DNA from: Candidatus Martarchaeota archaeon
GTDB taxonomy: Archaea > Micrarchaeota > Micrarchaeia > Micrarchaeales > Micrarchaeaceae
DNA: 38,624 nucleotides
Assembly (NCBI GenBank): GCA_023473395.1
Contig: JAMCYO010000032.1
Span: 1 to 38,624 of the forward strand
Reading direction: 5' to 3'
Below the pieces are notes generated by a model, which saw only the letters and a program-made list of their open reading frames with translations, made no database searches and had not been told where the DNA came from. This document shows positions 8,519 through 33,889 of this stretch, one piece after another. A program made the position numbers and the translations under genes. Numbering within the stretch: position 1 is the stretch's first letter; each line of letters begins with the position of its first letter.

Positions 8519-10177
8519 TTAGCCTTTGGAATAAACCGATATGTTTTCATTGCCATACGCATGCACTATGCCGTCATATTCAAGCAGATTGAACTTCTTT
8601 AGCCGTGGCGGGATCACAAAAGGCCCTGCTGCCACGCGAAGGCCGCATTCTTCTGCAAAGCTGCTGTTTGATTCAGTGATGATAAAATCCACAGAAGCCG
8701 CAGTGGTGCAGTTTGGGTAGAGCCCGTTGAAATACGCTGGTTTCGCATTTGAATACAGGCCGATACGTATGAGATCGTAGCTCGTAGCGAAACTTGCATT
8801 ACTTAAACCGTTTACAAATGAAATCCCTTGCATTAGTGGATAAAACGAAGCGTATTCTGACATCCCTACAAAATAAATTGAATATGAAGCCTGCAGTGCG
8901 AGGAGCAGAAATATGGCAATAAATGCGTAGAGAAAAGCCTTGCTATGGCGCTTTGCCCTTGATAGGCTCTCGGCACCTAGGCCCACCATCAGAGCAAGGG
9001 CTGGAGCGAGTATCAACGAATACCTTAACTGGGGGGCTATCAATATGTATTTGTGTATGCTCATTGTGCCGAAAATCAGATATACTAGAGTTATTGAGAA
9101 CCATACCGCGGGCAGCGATATCTTCCTGTCTCCCATGGCGAAGGCCAGAATCGCAGCTGCAATTGCAAGATATGCGAGCCATGAATACTGGAAATCCTGC
9201 ATTCTGTGCGGCACATGGCCATAGCTAGGGAGCAGATAAGAAGCAATGGATGAATTTCCCGAATAAAAAACAGGGAAAATCGAATTTATGTACGTGGAAA
9301 AAGTATTGCTAAGTGGCGTACCATACCATATGCTCTGGCTATACCACGAACTGTCTAAAGAAAATTGGAGTATCGGGCTTGCCCCAAGCGCGACATTGAA
9401 AAGCATAATTAGCATAACCCCCATTGCAATCCCTACGATAAAACCCATGGGAAGAACGTAATCCCTTCTGCGCAGTGCGGAATAGGATACGACGGCGAAT
9501 ATTGGGAGCAGCATTATCAGCTGCTCTGCCGTTATTAAAAACCCAAGCGACGTCACGAAAGAGGCAAAAAATATTAGTATAAATGAGCTATTTTTGCCCT
9601 TAGAGGTATACGCGGCATAGGTAGCATACATTGCCATAGTTGCCAAAAAGGCCATCGGCACCGCGTCCCCAACGGTAGACGCTCCCGTAACCGCAATCGG
9701 CATCACCGCATATGTGGCGGCAGCCATTATTCCGGATATGTTTCCAGAAAGCTTTTTACCGAAGAAAAACAGCAATATTATAGTGCCGATGAAACATAAT
9801 TCCCCGAATACAGTGCTTGCGAATATCGTCCTGCCAAAGATATAATAGAAAAGCGAGATTCCGACATTCATTATGTATTTCTGCCCTATCACGCCATTAT
9901 AAGGCAATGAGGCAATATTGCCATTGTATACCGACATTGAAAGGGCGGTGTATGTGTAAGAATCGGTAGTGTATTCGCTGGGGCCGTAGAAAAAGGCGTA
10001 GCTTAGAAAAACACCTATGATTACCACAACAGTTAGCAGAACGAACCATTTAATTTCAGCCCGGCCAAATGCGTTTTTGGGCTTTGTTGCAGTGGTGCCA
10101 CGGTATTTTTTACGCGATCTCAGATAATCACTTCCGCAAACGGGTTGAAGGCGCTCAGGCTTCGGCCACTTCGGCAA
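8519..10177 (-). CDS. polytopic membrane glycosyltransferase-like protein (GT39/ArnT/PMT_2-like)
   Basis: 552 aa, about 11 or more hydrophobic segments; early acidic loop YGPSEYTTDSYTYTALSMS and the general layout of GT-C enzymes. Confidence 0.65.
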   Translation of the reverse strand: MPKWPKPERLQPVCGSDYLRSRKKYRGTTATKPKNAFGRAEIKWFVLLTVVVIIGVFLSYAFFYGPSEYTTDSYTYTALSMSVYNGNIASLPYNGVIGQKYIMNVGISLFYYIFGRTIFASTVFGELCFIGTIILLFFFGKKLSGNISGIMAAATYAVMPIAVTGASTVGDAVPMAFLATMAMYATYAAYTSKGKNSSFILIFFASFVTSLGFLITAEQLIMLLPIFAVVSYSALRRRDYVLPMGFIVGIAMGVMLIMLFNVALGASPILQFSLDSSWYSQSIWYGTPLSNTFSTYINSIFPVFYSGNSSIASYLLPSYGHVPHRMQDFQYSWLAYLAIAAAILAFAMGDRKISLPAVWFSITLVYLIFGTMSIHKYILIAPQLRYSLILAPALALMVGLGAESLSRAKRHSKAFLYAFIAIFLLLALQASYSIYFVGMSEYASFYPLMQGISFVNGLSNASFATSYDLIRIGLYSNAKPAYFNGLYPNCTTAASVDFIITESNSSFAEECGLRVAAGPFVIPPRLKKFNLLEYDGIVHAYGNENISVYSKG

Positions 10178-11792: not shown

Positions 11793-12605
11793 TTAGCTGC
11801 TTATGAAGTTTGCAGTTAGGGCAGAAGGTGATTTTAGGGATATCTGCGTCTGTATCGCATTCGCGTTCGCTATGCTGGAGTTGGGAGACTCCAATATCCA
11901 TTCGTTGAACTGGTACCCATTGGGCGTTATCGCGTATATTGTGTAATTCCCCTGCTCCAATGGCACAGTAACCTCGTTGCTATAGCTTATCCCGTCAATC
12001 ACTATTCTGGCTATGCTTGGCTGGGCGTATAGCGAAAGATTTATCAGCTTCGCTGCCCCTGGAGAAATTTCCTGGATGGAAGTTCCCGTTGAGGTATACG
12101 GGCCCGAGCACGATTTTCCGCTGCAGGTATAGTAGCTTACCTTAAACGTGTCGCTTACGCTGCTGTACATCTTAGGCTCTACCGGCCCGTATATGTCGGC
12201 GTAGCATATTACTTCGGTGCCTGGATGGGCAATCTGCGGACCGCAGCTTCCTGTGCTGTTCAGGACGCCGGACTGCCCGACGTTCAAGGTAGTAACGTTG
12301 AACGGGTCCTTCGTGAAGTTAAGCGTTACGCCGAGGTTGTTAGTGAATATCAAGGTAAACTTTATGGGTTCGCCGGAATTAATAGCAGGAGCAAGATATG
12401 TATGTTGGCAGAGCATTAAAGGTTCGATATTGCAACTGGAGCCAAGGTATTGTGCCGGGGAAAAAGGGCCGGTCATGGCAAAAACGAGCGCAACTACCAT
12501 CGCTATCAGGATTATCGCCCATGAATATACGCTGAGCATTTCTATTGCCGATTGGGCGCGCGCCTTTATGAAGGCTATCGAATGTAAACCCTTGGTTTTT
12601 CGCAT
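11793..12605 (-). CDS. surface protein with class III (type IV pilin-like) signal and C-terminal InlB/Flg_new_2-like repeat
   Basis: 270 aa; ARAQSAIEMLSVYSWAIILIAMVVALVFAM N-terminus; C-terminus NYTIYAITPNGYQFNEWILESPNSS...ALTANF. Confidence 0.75.
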   Translation of the reverse strand: MRKTKGLHSIAFIKARAQSAIEMLSVYSWAIILIAMVVALVFAMTGPFSPAQYLGSSCNIEPLMLCQHTYLAPAINSGEPIKFTLIFTNNLGVTLNFTKDPFNVTTLNVGQSGVLNSTGSCGPQIAHPGTEVICYADIYGPVEPKMYSSVSDTFKVSYYTCSGKSCSGPYTSTGTSIQEISPGAAKLINLSLYAQPSIARIVIDGISYSNEVTVPLEQGNYTIYAITPNGYQFNEWILESPNSSIANANAIQTQISLKSPSALTANFISS

Positions 12606-28975: not shown

Positions 28976-29115
28976 AATATGTCGTAGCTAACAAATGATT
29001 TTTAACAAAACCGCAACGCATAATACCGAATGTTCCGCTCATACCGCTTTACAATTGGAATAGTCAAGTATTTTATTAGTTTTTATTTATTGTATAAATA
29101 AGAGGGTGCAAGATA

Positions 29116-31062
29116 TTGATTAATGCAAAACAAACTTATAAGAAAGCCCAATCCGCAATGGAATACCTGATAACGTACGGTTGGGCAATACTGATTATCG
29201 CAGTGGTAATATCGCTTCTTTACCTCTACATTGCGGTTCCCAAAGTCATCGTTCCTTCTACGTGCAGTTTCGTGACTGGCGCGGTATGCCAAGACCTCAT
29301 ATTCGGCACCAACACAACCACGCACGCAACCGAACTTGGTTTATTCATAACAAATTCAAGAAAGTATCCGGTATATGACCCCATGATTTATGCAAGCATA
29401 AACGGGAAGAATACCTCTGCCGTTGCGTGCAAACCATCGTTCGTATTGGCAGGAGGTTCCATAATATGCGTGCTACCCACTTCCGTGACTTCCACATTGG
29501 GGCAGTTCTTCTCGGGTGGGGTATACCTCAACGTTTCGTACTGCGGCCTTGCGCCAAATCCGAATTCGCCATCGTCATGCGCAACTGCTCCAAAAGAGAC
29601 ATACGCTGGAACCTATAGCGCGCACGCTGAACCACTTGTTTCGCCTAGTTATACAATAACGCTTTCGGTTCAAAATTCAACACAGCCATCTAACAACGCC
29701 AAGGACAAACTCACCGCAAGGGTTACCCTTCTGGGTTACCCGCAAAGCGGCGCAACCGTGAATTTCACCGCAACGTTTACAAAGAACGGTACCAACGCAA
29801 TACCTCCCTATTCGTTCCAGAGCCAGTATGTTACCACTGGAACGAATGGTGAGGCCGTTGATTACATATGGGGGACAAAGGTTGCCAATGTTACAGTAAC
29901 AGCAAATTATGCAGGGCTGAACGCGTCTAAGACAATAAACTTCGTCGCGGTAGTTCCTGTTTATTTCGCGATATCCAACATACCATCAAACCTGCAGAGT
30001 TCTACATCCGACATAGCGACAATAGACGGAGTCGGGTATTCGTATTCGCAACTTACAAAAAAGCCGACGTCCTTCGAGTTCGGGTGCAACACTACGCACA
30101 CCTACGACTTCAATCCGATAATATACAACTCCTCAGGTACAAGATACGTATTCCAGAGCGTTTCAATAAACGGTTTCAGCTCCACTTCAAACTCTGGAAG
30201 CGTTACTGTCTCAACGTGCAAGACGCAGAACTTCACGGTAGACTACCTTCCGCAGTACGAACTGTATGAAGTTCCTTCGCCTTCCATCGGGGGCAGCGTA
30301 TCCCCAGGAACCTCCTGGTATTATCCATCCAGCAGCGTTACGATATCCGAAACGCCAAACACCACAGGAGATTACATATTCGTAGACTGGACATGCAACG
30401 GCACCGGATGCTATTCCGGAACGGACACTAGCACCTCATTGACGGTAAACAATCCTATAAACGAGACTGCGATATTCAGCAGCACAACCACATCGACATC
30501 AACCACGTCAACATCAACGACAACGTCAACCACTTCTACCTCTACATCAACAACTTCTACATCCACATCAACCACGTCAACATCAACGACTACATCGACA
30601 TCTTCAACAACTTCAACTACGACGTCTTCTACAACATCGACAACAACATCCACAACGTCAACATCCACGACTACATCTACCACTTCTACATCCACATCAA
30701 CCACGTCAACATCAACGACAACGTCGACATCTTCAACGACATCGTCAACGACTTCATCTACAACATCGACGACAACGTCAACAACAACGTCCACAACAAC
30801 TTCAACAACAACGTCAACAACAACATCGACATCTACAATATTGATAGAATCGTGCCTTGAATCTACTGGGTATGGTGGTGTTGGAGTGTGGGAGTATTAT
30901 ACAGATACCAACTGCGGATCCAGCACACCTTATTGTACAGCATATTCTGAAACATATTCATGTAGTTCAGACAATAACATTGGCGGTGGAAACGGTTGTA
31001 CTGCAATATCTCCAGGGCAAGTGCCAAAGGGAGTTACCTCGAGCGGAACGTGTGAGACCTAA
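29116..31062 (+). CDS. pilin-anchored modular adhesin-like surface protein with Thr/Ser-rich stalk and Cys-rich C-terminus
   Basis: 648 aa from TTG 29116 with GGTG 29105-29108; AQSAMEYLITYGWAILIIAVVISLLYLY class III signal; Big_1-like and InlB/Flg_new_2-like segments; about 120-residue T/S tract; six Cys in the last ~75 aa. Confidence 0.8.
   Translation: MINAKQTYKKAQSAMEYLITYGWAILIIAVVISLLYLYIAVPKVIVPSTCSFVTGAVCQDLIFGTNTTTHATELGLFITNSRKYPVYDPMIYASINGKNTSAVACKPSFVLAGGSIICVLPTSVTSTLGQFFSGGVYLNVSYCGLAPNPNSPSSCATAPKETYAGTYSAHAEPLVSPSYTITLSVQNSTQPSNNAKDKLTARVTLLGYPQSGATVNFTATFTKNGTNAIPPYSFQSQYVTTGTNGEAVDYIWGTKVANVTVTANYAGLNASKTINFVAVVPVYFAISNIPSNLQSSTSDIATIDGVGYSYSQLTKKPTSFEFGCNTTHTYDFNPIIYNSSGTRYVFQSVSINGFSSTSNSGSVTVSTCKTQNFTVDYLPQYELYEVPSPSIGGSVSPGTSWYYPSSSVTISETPNTTGDYIFVDWTCNGTGCYSGTDTSTSLTVNNPINETAIFSSTTTSTSTTSTSTTTSTTSTSTSTTSTSTSTTSTSTTTSTSSTTSTTTSSTTSTTTSTTSTSTTTSTTSTSTSTTSTSTTTSTSSTTSSTTSSTTSTTTSTTTSTTTSTTTSTTTSTSTILIESCLESTGYGGVGVWEYYTDTNCGSSTPYCTAYSETYSCSSDNNIGGGNGCTAISPGQVPKGVTSSGTCET
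30478..30836 (+). repeat. degenerate Thr/Ser-codon low-complexity tract with internal duplications
   Basis: Encodes (TTSTST)n-like sequence; identical 38-mer ACTTCTACATCCACATCAACCACGTCAACATCAACGAC at 30553-30590 and 30682-30719. Confidence 0.9.
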
Positions 31063-32343
31063 ATGACCGATATCAATAACCTAAACGGAACGGATGCAAC
31101 AAACGGATCCACACAGGGAGAAACGGCAAACGCGCAAAGCAAACCGGAAGAGCCTAAAATTGAAATTCAAGCAGGAGCTATAAATCCTGATTCGCAAATT
31201 AAAGATTTAAAAAGAATACATGCACACTACCTGTTTGCGATAATAGCAGTTATAGTTGCAGTAACAGTTATGTATGCAGCCTATTCTGTATACCAAAATG
31301 CACATATAAGCAGTGTACATAATGTGACTTCCACCATAACACAAACAAATACAAGCACAAGCAACATTGATGCATATATATATTGTGTGGGGAGTAGGGC
31401 GTATACCCCAAATAACCTAAGTTATTATGCACCGATATATACAAATGGCTCAGTAGGGAATTGGTTAAAGACGACGAATTACCCATATTTTGGATATGGA
31501 TTGGATTGTTTTAGCAATGCAGGATACGTTTACTGCTTGCCGGCAGGCCAGGCAAATAATACTGAAAATAAAAATTTAAATTTGGCATATTATGCCAAGC
31601 TTTCAAGAAATGGCATTGGGAATTGGTCAGAGACGACGAATTACCCTATACCGTTATCTGGGGCCTTGTGCTACCCCTATAAAAACAGAGTTTATTGTGT
31701 TGGTGATGAAAGCAGCGTAGCAAAGAATCAAGTTTATTATGCCAACCTATCTGCAAATGGCATAGGGAACTGGATACAGACAACTTCGTACCCTATACCA
31801 TTTTATGCAGCTAGGTGCGTTGCTTATGACAATTATATGTATTGCATAGGCGATGGTTACCATAATTCGTCAATCTCAAGCGAAAGCTATTATATGCGTC
31901 AGGTAAGATTTGCTAGGATATTGCCTAATGGAAGCATAGGAAACTGGACTGAGACTACCGATTATCCGCTGCCACTTAGCGGGTCTGGATGCTTGCCTTA
32001 TGGCGGTTACATTTACTGCATAGGACCAGCAGTAAACAAATTAGCTACAGATACCTATTATGCGAAGATACTGCCAAACGGGAGCATAGGAAACTGGGCT
32101 AAGTCGGTAAATTACCCGATAGGATTTTTCGGTTCTATATGTACCGAGAACAACGGATTCATGTACTGCATAGGCGACGGCGAGACAGTGTTTGTAAATG
32201 GAACGATATCAAAAAGTTATTTCCCTTATGCAAATCAATCCTATTACGCCAAAATGACCACGAACGGATTTGTAAATTGGACAAGTATAACTAAGTACCC
32301 AATACCGTTTGCTTACTCTTCGTGTGTTGTTAACAATATATGA
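31063..32343 (+). CDS. membrane-anchored six-bladed Kelch-like propeller with one Cys pair per blade
   Basis: 426 aa; N-terminal TM HYLFAIIAVIVAVTVMYAAYSVYQN; six repeats of YYAxLxxNGxIGNWxxTTxYPxP...C-x8-C. Confidence 0.8.
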   Translation: MTDINNLNGTDATNGSTQGETANAQSKPEEPKIEIQAGAINPDSQIKDLKRIHAHYLFAIIAVIVAVTVMYAAYSVYQNAHISSVHNVTSTITQTNTSTSNIDAYIYCVGSRAYTPNNLSYYAPIYTNGSVGNWLKTTNYPYFGYGLDCFSNAGYVYCLPAGQANNTENKNLNLAYYAKLSRNGIGNWSETTNYPIPLSGALCYPYKNRVYCVGDESSVAKNQVYYANLSANGIGNWIQTTSYPIPFYAARCVAYDNYMYCIGDGYHNSSISSESYYMRQVRFARILPNGSIGNWTETTDYPLPLSGSGCLPYGGYIYCIGPAVNKLATDTYYAKILPNGSIGNWAKSVNYPIGFFGSICTENNGFMYCIGDGETVFVNGTISKSYFPYANQSYYAKMTTNGFVNWTSITKYPIPFAYSSCVVNNI

Positions 32344-32347
32344 TTTT

Positions 32348-33889
32348 ATGCCAAAAAAAATAAAAAGGATTAAAAGAGCAAAAAACGGTTATAGAATATT
32401 TTATATAGCAGCAACTGTAATAGCCGTATTGTTTTTTGTATCAATCTTCTACAACGGTTTTTCCATTAATGCCAGTGTTGACTCTTGCCCTATGGCAATT
32501 CGCAATTTAAATGTATATGGATATCTATCGGGCACTTTTAGGGGTTTGTACTTAAATGGCACGCAGAACAGCAATTTCCAATTCGAATATGATGCATGCC
32601 ATTTATATTATATCGATGGAAGTATAGGCAATTTTACATACCATACGGCAGGATTAACTTCAAATGCCTCAGTCTTGGGTCCGGTAACCCCTTATGCAGG
32701 TATGCTTTTTGTTCCGCTTTCTTCCCCATCCCCAAATTATACGTATGCAGCTAAAGCAGTAAATAATAAGACGTTTTGGGGCGGGATTTTGGCGCTTAAC
32801 CTAACAACTGGAAAACAGGTTTGGGTTAAAATATTTCCAGACCAAATAATGACACAGCCATTAACGGCCAAAGGACTGGTATATGTTGGTTTAGGAAATG
32901 GATACGGTTCATATTATAATGAGACATTTAAAGATGGTAAATTTGTCGGACTTTCAGGCTTGAATGGCGTAGTAGCACTAAATACCACTACGGGAAAAAT
33001 CGTCTGGTACGACCCAACGATAGTGTCGCATATGCCATCTTTTGTATATTATAACAACACTTTAATTGTAGTTCCAGGGGCAGGGGCAGGTAAAGATTCA
33101 ATATTCCTGTATGCCCTCAACGCTTCGTCTGGAAAAGTAAAATGGAAGTTATTCATAGGTGGTTATTCTGCAATGTCGTCCCCAGTATTTGCAGGTGGAA
33201 ACATATATTTTGGTACGGGGGAGGTAGGTAATTATCCAGAATTTTCCGGAAATAATTCCACAAACTTATTAACATACAACGACACATTTTTTGCAGTAAA
33301 TCTCAGCACTAGAAGCGTCATATGGTCGCACAAGTTTAATTCTAACGACGGAACGCAGGATAGCTCGCCTATATATTATAACGGAATCGTGGTAACTGGA
33401 TTCGATCCGCTCAACAGTTCGGCGGCTCCAAGCAACATTCCTGCAAACGTGGTAATAAATGTAAATCTGGCCGCATTCAACGCAAAAAATGGCAGCTTGC
33501 TTTGGACTTTTTATGAAGGCGCCGGTTTTCAAAACCAGTATATAAACCTTCCACCGCTTACCGCTTATGACGGAGTCGTTTATAGCGATACGGTGAGCGT
33601 CGGTAAGCTTTGGGCCGTAAATTTAACAACAGGTAAAGGGCTATGGTCCTTCAATACTGGAAAGGAATCGGGTAATGTCAATATATACGGTAGCCATATA
33701 TACGTAAGCAACATGAACGGAACCCTTTTTGTACTCGACTTAAACGGTACCCTTTATAAAAAAATTAATATTGGGATTGGAGGAGGCCCTGAAAATCTTC
33801 TTTTTATGGGAAAGAATATTTTGATTTATGGCATTGGCAATAGCGTTGAATCAATTCCAGTAAGCAAACTTCTTAATTTGTCAAGCTAA
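32348..33889 (+). CDS. membrane-anchored PQQ-like (WD40-like) beta-propeller protein
   Basis: About 513 aa; N-terminal TM IFYIAATVIAVLFFVSIFY; repeats such as GILALNLTTGKQVWVKIF, GVVALNTTTGKIVWYDP, LYALNASSGKVKWKLF, LWAVNLTTGKGLWSFNTG. Confidence 0.85.
   Translation: MPKKIKRIKRAKNGYRIFYIAATVIAVLFFVSIFYNGFSINASVDSCPMAIRNLNVYGYLSGTFRGLYLNGTQNSNFQFEYDACHLYYIDGSIGNFTYHTAGLTSNASVLGPVTPYAGMLFVPLSSPSPNYTYAAKAVNNKTFWGGILALNLTTGKQVWVKIFPDQIMTQPLTAKGLVYVGLGNGYGSYYNETFKDGKFVGLSGLNGVVALNTTTGKIVWYDPTIVSHMPSFVYYNNTLIVVPGAGAGKDSIFLYALNASSGKVKWKLFIGGYSAMSSPVFAGGNIYFGTGEVGNYPEFSGNNSTNLLTYNDTFFAVNLSTRSVIWSHKFNSNDGTQDSSPIYYNGIVVTGFDPLNSSAAPSNIPANVVINVNLAAFNAKNGSLLWTFYEGAGFQNQYINLPPLTAYDGVVYSDTVSVGKLWAVNLTTGKGLWSFNTGKESGNVNIYGSHIYVSNMNGTLFVLDLNGTLYKKINIGIGGGPENLLFMGKNILIYGIGNSVESIPVSKLLNLSS

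Follow-up and report, generated by a model that had tools for sequence, protein, structure and literature searches.

Unrelated tips on a conserved pilin-like stem: a candidate modular adhesin family of Candidatus Micrarchaeum and its relatives

The locus and its genes

The window analysed here (the whole stretch of DNA, 38,624 nucleotides) comes from a 666-kb genome, 79.5% complete, that belongs to Candidatus Micrarchaeum, a host-dependent DPANN lineage, and the guess of a small archaeon made in a first-pass annotation from the letters alone was therefore sound. Among named relatives the closest are Ca. Micrarchaeum sp. A_DKE (80% across the stem of the protein described below) and other Micrarchaeota MAGs. 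The window contains a gene for a putative adhesin, whose parts and relevant neighbours are as follows.

8519-10177, reverse strand: PMT_2 family membrane glycosyltransferase, candidate O-mannosyltransferase (Pfam, 2.9e-7, above cut-off)
11793-12605, reverse strand: second class III protein of the window, with an InlB-like C-terminus (syntenic homologue in A_DKE)
29102-29108, forward strand: GAGGGTG, possible ribosome-binding site, 7 nt 5' of the TTG start (sequence and inference)
29116-31062, forward strand: whole adhesin gene, 648 aa plus stop, TTG start (homologues in relatives)
29116-29148, forward strand: class III leader, residues 1-11, predicted cleavage after A11 (sequence; invariance of Q12 and E16)
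29149-29235, forward strand: pilin N-terminal hydrophobic helix, residues 12-40 (alignment, AlphaFold model)
29257-29640, forward strand: pilin-like beta-sandwich head with six invariant Cys, residues 48-175 (alignment; AlphaFold mean pLDDT 87)
29650-29979, forward strand: Big_1, or invasin-intimin-type, Ig domain, residues 179-288 (Pfam in homologues, PDB profile, AlphaFold, Foldseek)
29983-30249, forward strand: first InlB-like beta segment, residues 290-378 (AlphaFold; tandem copies in relatives)
30250-30486, forward strand: second InlB-like segment, Flg_new_2-type, residues 379-457 (Pfam in homologues, AlphaFold)
30478-30837, forward strand: Thr/Ser stalk, residues 455-574 (composition; predicted disordered)
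30838-31059, forward strand: 74-aa six-Cys tip, an orphan (sequence; searches without homologue)
31063-32343, forward strand: next gene, TM anchor and kelch-like propeller (Pfam kelch, 1.8e-6)
32348-33889, forward strand: following gene, TM anchor and PQQ-type beta-propeller (TTG at 32309 also a possible start)

Domain architecture

Compared on its own with Pfam and NCBIfam, the full-length window protein matches no family at E<=0.1, and family-level scans were needed. The leader reads MINAKQTYKKA followed by QSAMEYLITYGWAILIIAVV, with the cut-site motif KKA/QSAMEYL (the slash marks the predicted cut) and Glu at +5; Q12, A14 and E16 (+5) are invariant in an alignment of 22 homologues. The class III (prepilin) signal read by the first-pass annotation is borne out. 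The same alignment shows the six invariant Cys of the pilin head to be C50, C58, C105, C118, C143 and C155. In the AlphaFold model an N-terminal helix is followed by a beta-rich head, as in modular pilins, with a generic fold match: the Foldseek matches of the head are generic beta-sandwiches, with Kir-channel and CARDB-type structures at the top and the Sulfolobus AAP filament ranking only 28th, and this search is not diagnostic.

Confident folds extend over residues ~50-456 of the model, and intimin and invasin are among the best Foldseek matches, so that the Ig-like folds on which the annotation had made its reading depend are predicted. Its invasin-like segment is recovered as a Big_1 domain by Pfam in 18 of the 22 homologues (best 3.4e-11; the window copy alone gives E=0.0015, under the Pfam gathering score), and the stem profile retrieves intimin from the PDB at 4e-7. 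As for the two InlB/Flg_new_2-like segments that it proposed, the beta folds are predicted and Flg_new_2 matches half of the family (11/22 homologues, best 6.5e-12), while the window copy by itself is not among the matches. Relatives G027 and G011 carry tandem arrays of the first InlB-like unit, and in members of the order tandem InlB arrays are found in proteins of up to 1893 aa. Such C-terminal modules are not specific to type IV pili (T4P), whether they are the Ig and InlB-like domains of the window protein or the propellers, Gly-rich regions and Hint modules of its relatives.

What had been estimated as a Thr/Ser tract of about 120 residues and a tail of about 75 proved to be exactly 120 consecutive residues (75 T and 45 S, uninterrupted), encoded by an imperfect repeat array, and a 74-aa tip with six Cys and no C-terminal TM. 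At the position of this stalk, two other members (L064 and L045) have low-complexity linkers of other kinds (TNAA and TATN repeats). For this putative disulfide-rich tip AlphaFold gives a pLDDT of about 25-53 and no confident fold, no homologue of the tip occurs in 165 genomes of the order, and a PDB search with the tip alone returned noise only. We found no support for the tip being a frameshift artefact: nothing in the other frames resembles a known tip, and the stop is followed directly by the next gene. Nor is there support for a remnant of a Hint module, for which the window protein gives no match.

The protein contains 14 N-glycosylation sequons, and its own genome encodes an STT3 homologue. 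Apart from the PMT_2 glycosyltransferase in the window, others occur elsewhere in the genus; since PMT_2 is a broad family, O-glycosylation of the stalk is no more than possible.

Conservation of the stem and gene order

We refer to the first ~457 aa as the stem. Each of the 60 relatives searched carries the stem, in full or at least in its N-terminal part, and across the phylum it is present in 179/302 genomes at E<=1e-15; these include nearly all genomes of the order's two families, and elsewhere there are weak matches only. None was confirmed in viral contigs. Between the window and its congeners the stem retains 76-81% identity, and dN/dS between congeners is about 0.04-0.08, an approximate ratio because dS is near saturation. 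The stem is thus under purifying selection.

This conservation in sequence is accompanied by differences in position. In A_DKE the second stem gene sits between homologues of the window genes g15088 and g17139, in genome G001 both stem genes lie on the same side of g15088, and the window has nothing at the g15088-g17139 junction, its stem gene being found 12 kb off, near SerRS. Within the genus the stem gene either changes place or is lost and later regained. The surroundings differ on a larger scale as well: a 31.6-kb block (window 2498-34129) separates the gene for an MFS transporter from SerRS, the two are 1.3 kb apart in A_DKE, and much of the block lies there about 160 kb away, an arrangement that points to translocation.

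Type IV pilus machinery is encoded in the same genome (G000), with three matches to the T2SSE ATPase, and on contig C37 an ATPase accompanied by two T2SSF platform matches. All 14 relatives with a completeness of at least 90% have a prepilin peptidase; none was found in the window's own, 79.5% complete genome. In other genera, shorter paralogues of the stem lie within a T4P ATPase operon (L202), next to an ATPase (L070) or next to the prepilin peptidase (L203), and these neighbours tie the pilin module to T4P biology.

Diversity and replacement of tips

Beyond the stalk the picture changes. We aligned the stems, compared the full ORFs and tested similarity between tips against shuffled tips in a P-value-like test. 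The window tip is within the range of shuffled sequences when compared with any congener tip. Two pairs exceed the shuffles: the tips of G003 and A_DKE copy b, probably owing to a shared Hint start, and the YVTN and A_DKE copy b tips, where composition is a possible reason. Both tandem copies of G001 end in a YVTN propeller; the G003 tip has a kelch-like propeller and, after it, the beginning of a Hint module; A_DKE copy a (G002a) ends in an orphan and copy b (G002b, L040) in a Cys-rich region plus Hint. Across the order we found Pfam Gly_rich_2 tips, a large homologous Gly-rich group and further orphans, and Cys-rich tips also terminate two other adhesins (L046 and L062). The window tip is one of many unrelated tips on a stem that is conserved order-wide.

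The complete genome of A_DKE shows tip replacement directly. Its copies a and b share 95.3% DNA identity across 1647 bp, from the leader through the end of the Thr/Ser tract, and past this point no match is left and the tips are unrelated. In copy b, near 454 kb, a nonsense change interrupts the frame within the second InlB-like segment, yet the part that encodes the Cys-rich and Hint tip remains open. A second comparison involves A_DKE copy a and the gene of G003, which occupy one syntenic locus and have stem and stalk in common with unrelated tips. The neighbouring genes show 88-92% DNA identity (dS 0.49-0.72), and the stem has a dS of 1.34. From the unrelated tips and these distances we conclude that the tip was replaced at a fixed position; the stem at this locus was probably also exchanged or converted. 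Recombination would be the route of tip replacement.

A possible source of tips is suggested by the gene downstream of the window adhesin, which is missing from most congeners. Its kelch-like propeller matches the tip of the G003 adhesin (G003:C1:38015-38569, E=4.2e-8), and hence one fold occurs in two settings, in an anchored protein with a gene of its own and as a tip; a TM-anchored kelch gene of this kind may have become an adhesin tip. A polytopic membrane protein in the same genome as the window (L075:4156-5799, reverse strand, contig C38 of G000) combines Cys-rich modules with a Thr/Ser linker and resembles the tip of the G014 adhesin, so that a tip-type module is present on another scaffold too.

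One or two Hint/intein-like modules end nine adhesins (L044, L045, L048, L049, L054, L057, L061, L064 and L040). In profile searches they match BIL and intein structures at 6e-11 to 1e-4 (alignment A3). They begin with Cys or Ser at position 1, most have another residue in place of the usual TxxH His, and the C-terminal HN is absent, which leaves their activity uncertain.

Function and alternative explanations

To account for a constant stem with changing ends, we propose, as the moderately likely explanation, that in Ca. Micrarchaeum the protein is a modular type IV pilin that works as an adhesin on the cell surface and displays interchangeable tips beyond the S-layer. A class III prepilin peptidase would cut the precursor after A11, and the exposed N-terminal helix would either hold the protein in the membrane or let it join a type IV filament as a minor or tip subunit. 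Anchoring draws support from the sequence and from the position of the shorter paralogues in or beside T4P genes. Pilin head, Ig domain and the two InlB-like domains would form a rigid stem, on which the 120-residue Thr/Ser run, probably glycosylated, would space the C-terminal tip past the S-layer, where it could contact another cell or the biofilm matrix. The platform of stem and stalk would be fixed, and recombination at the junction of stalk and tip would swap the tip, leaving each species or paralogue with a different binding head. The very different ends that relatives carry on the shared stem and stalk make the protein a good candidate for recognising partner cells. Cryo-ET shows filaments running between Micrarchaeum cells and the host, and these may be host-made (PMC8975820).

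A plausible, if somewhat doubtful, alternative is that the protein stays anchored in the membrane at the cell surface and is never built into a pilus, its class III helix being simply the anchor of an S-layer-penetrating strut or of a part of the cell coat. This reading overlaps with the explanation proposed above, which leaves membrane or filament open. The full-length adhesin genes examined, including the Micrarchaeum stem genes, do lie outside T4P operons, the beta domains and bristle would suit a strut, and the adjoining genes encode TM-anchored propellers. However, a plain anchor would not need the invariant Q12 and E16 of the prepilin motif, and the shorter paralogues are found in an operon with the T4P ATPase or beside the peptidase.

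We consider it unlikely that the protein belongs to the cell coat or biofilm (through self-adhesion, matrix binding or as an S-layer component) rather than to host contact, with tips that diverge by drift or by escape from viruses. Surface receptors for viruses commonly diversify, and proteins with propeller, PKD and CARDB domains are found in archaeal S-layers; kelch and YVTN surface proteins are described in the related Mia14 (PMC5498576). Drift, however, does not account for a 95%-identical stem and stalk with a wholly unrelated tip in one genome, and escape from viruses is met by the lack of confirmed relatives when viral contigs were searched. That the orphan tail is the degraded, non-functional remnant of a longer tip would fit its 74 aa with neither homologue nor confident fold, and a broken family copy does exist in A_DKE (G002b), but we regard this as improbable given that the six Cys are kept, a clean stop stands immediately before the next gene, the other frames hold no tip match and other members (L046, L062) end in Cys-rich tips too.

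The modular pilin with interchangeable tips can be extended, quite tentatively, to a system of tip exchange across the Micrarchaeales, in which a single pilin stem, recombining at its Thr/Ser repeat tract, would take up new binding heads that set partner specificity, some of them first separate TM-anchored genes such as the downstream kelch gene. Where a member ends in a Hint module, it may in addition process its own C-terminus or attach it covalently.

Relation to known systems

Parts of this architecture are familiar from elsewhere. The Big_1-type Ig domain is shared with invasin and intimin, which differ in their anchor: the window protein has no outer-membrane beta-barrel, and the pilin helix at its N-terminus takes that place. 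Among archaeal T4P, DUF2341 proteins have been predicted as tip adhesins in a survey whose main text does not mention DPANN or ARMAN (PMC4858521). Like the window adhesin they are secreted or class III proteins proposed for the pilus tip, but the window adhesin has no Pfam match to DUF2341. A separate 533-aa class III protein of the same genome (L078:4665-6263, contig C35 of G000) has a weak match to this domain (0.0018). In Mia14, an ARMAN-2-related archaeon, kelch/YVTN surface proteins, some of them linked to T4P loci, have been proposed for host contact (PMC5498576). These are likewise propeller surface proteins of a related lineage, but the part of that report available presents them as surface-layer proteins fused to CARDB-like modules and does not describe a shared pilin stem with replaceable ends. 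No description of the adhesin family was found in the literature, which was covered in part.

In A_DKE (Ca. M. harzensis), a symbiont in culture whose host is known, the family provides specific candidate genes for host recognition by ultrasmall DPANN archaea, and it leads to a prediction: same stem, different tip, different partner. Pilus-dependent host binding has already been shown for ultrasmall bacterial episymbionts (PMC12206443), and an archaeal parallel would be informative.

The closest precedent is provided by the bimodular type IV pilins PilB and PilC of Streptococcus sanguinis, with adhesion shown for PilB, in a paper whose main text does not contain the word "archaea" (PMC8179133). 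There, as here, an unrelated functional module is grafted C-terminally on a class III leader and pilin module for display, and grafting as such is therefore already known from bacteria. Unlike PilB and PilC, the proteins described here are archaeal, they place an Ig/InlB stem and a long Thr/Ser stalk between pilin and tip, and their tip is exchanged inside one conserved family. The apparent novelty lies in a stem that is conserved, bears a stalk and carries interchangeable heads, in archaea that depend on a host. This form would extend modular pilins to the Archaea, and in it tip replacement is visible even between two nearly identical copies in one genome.
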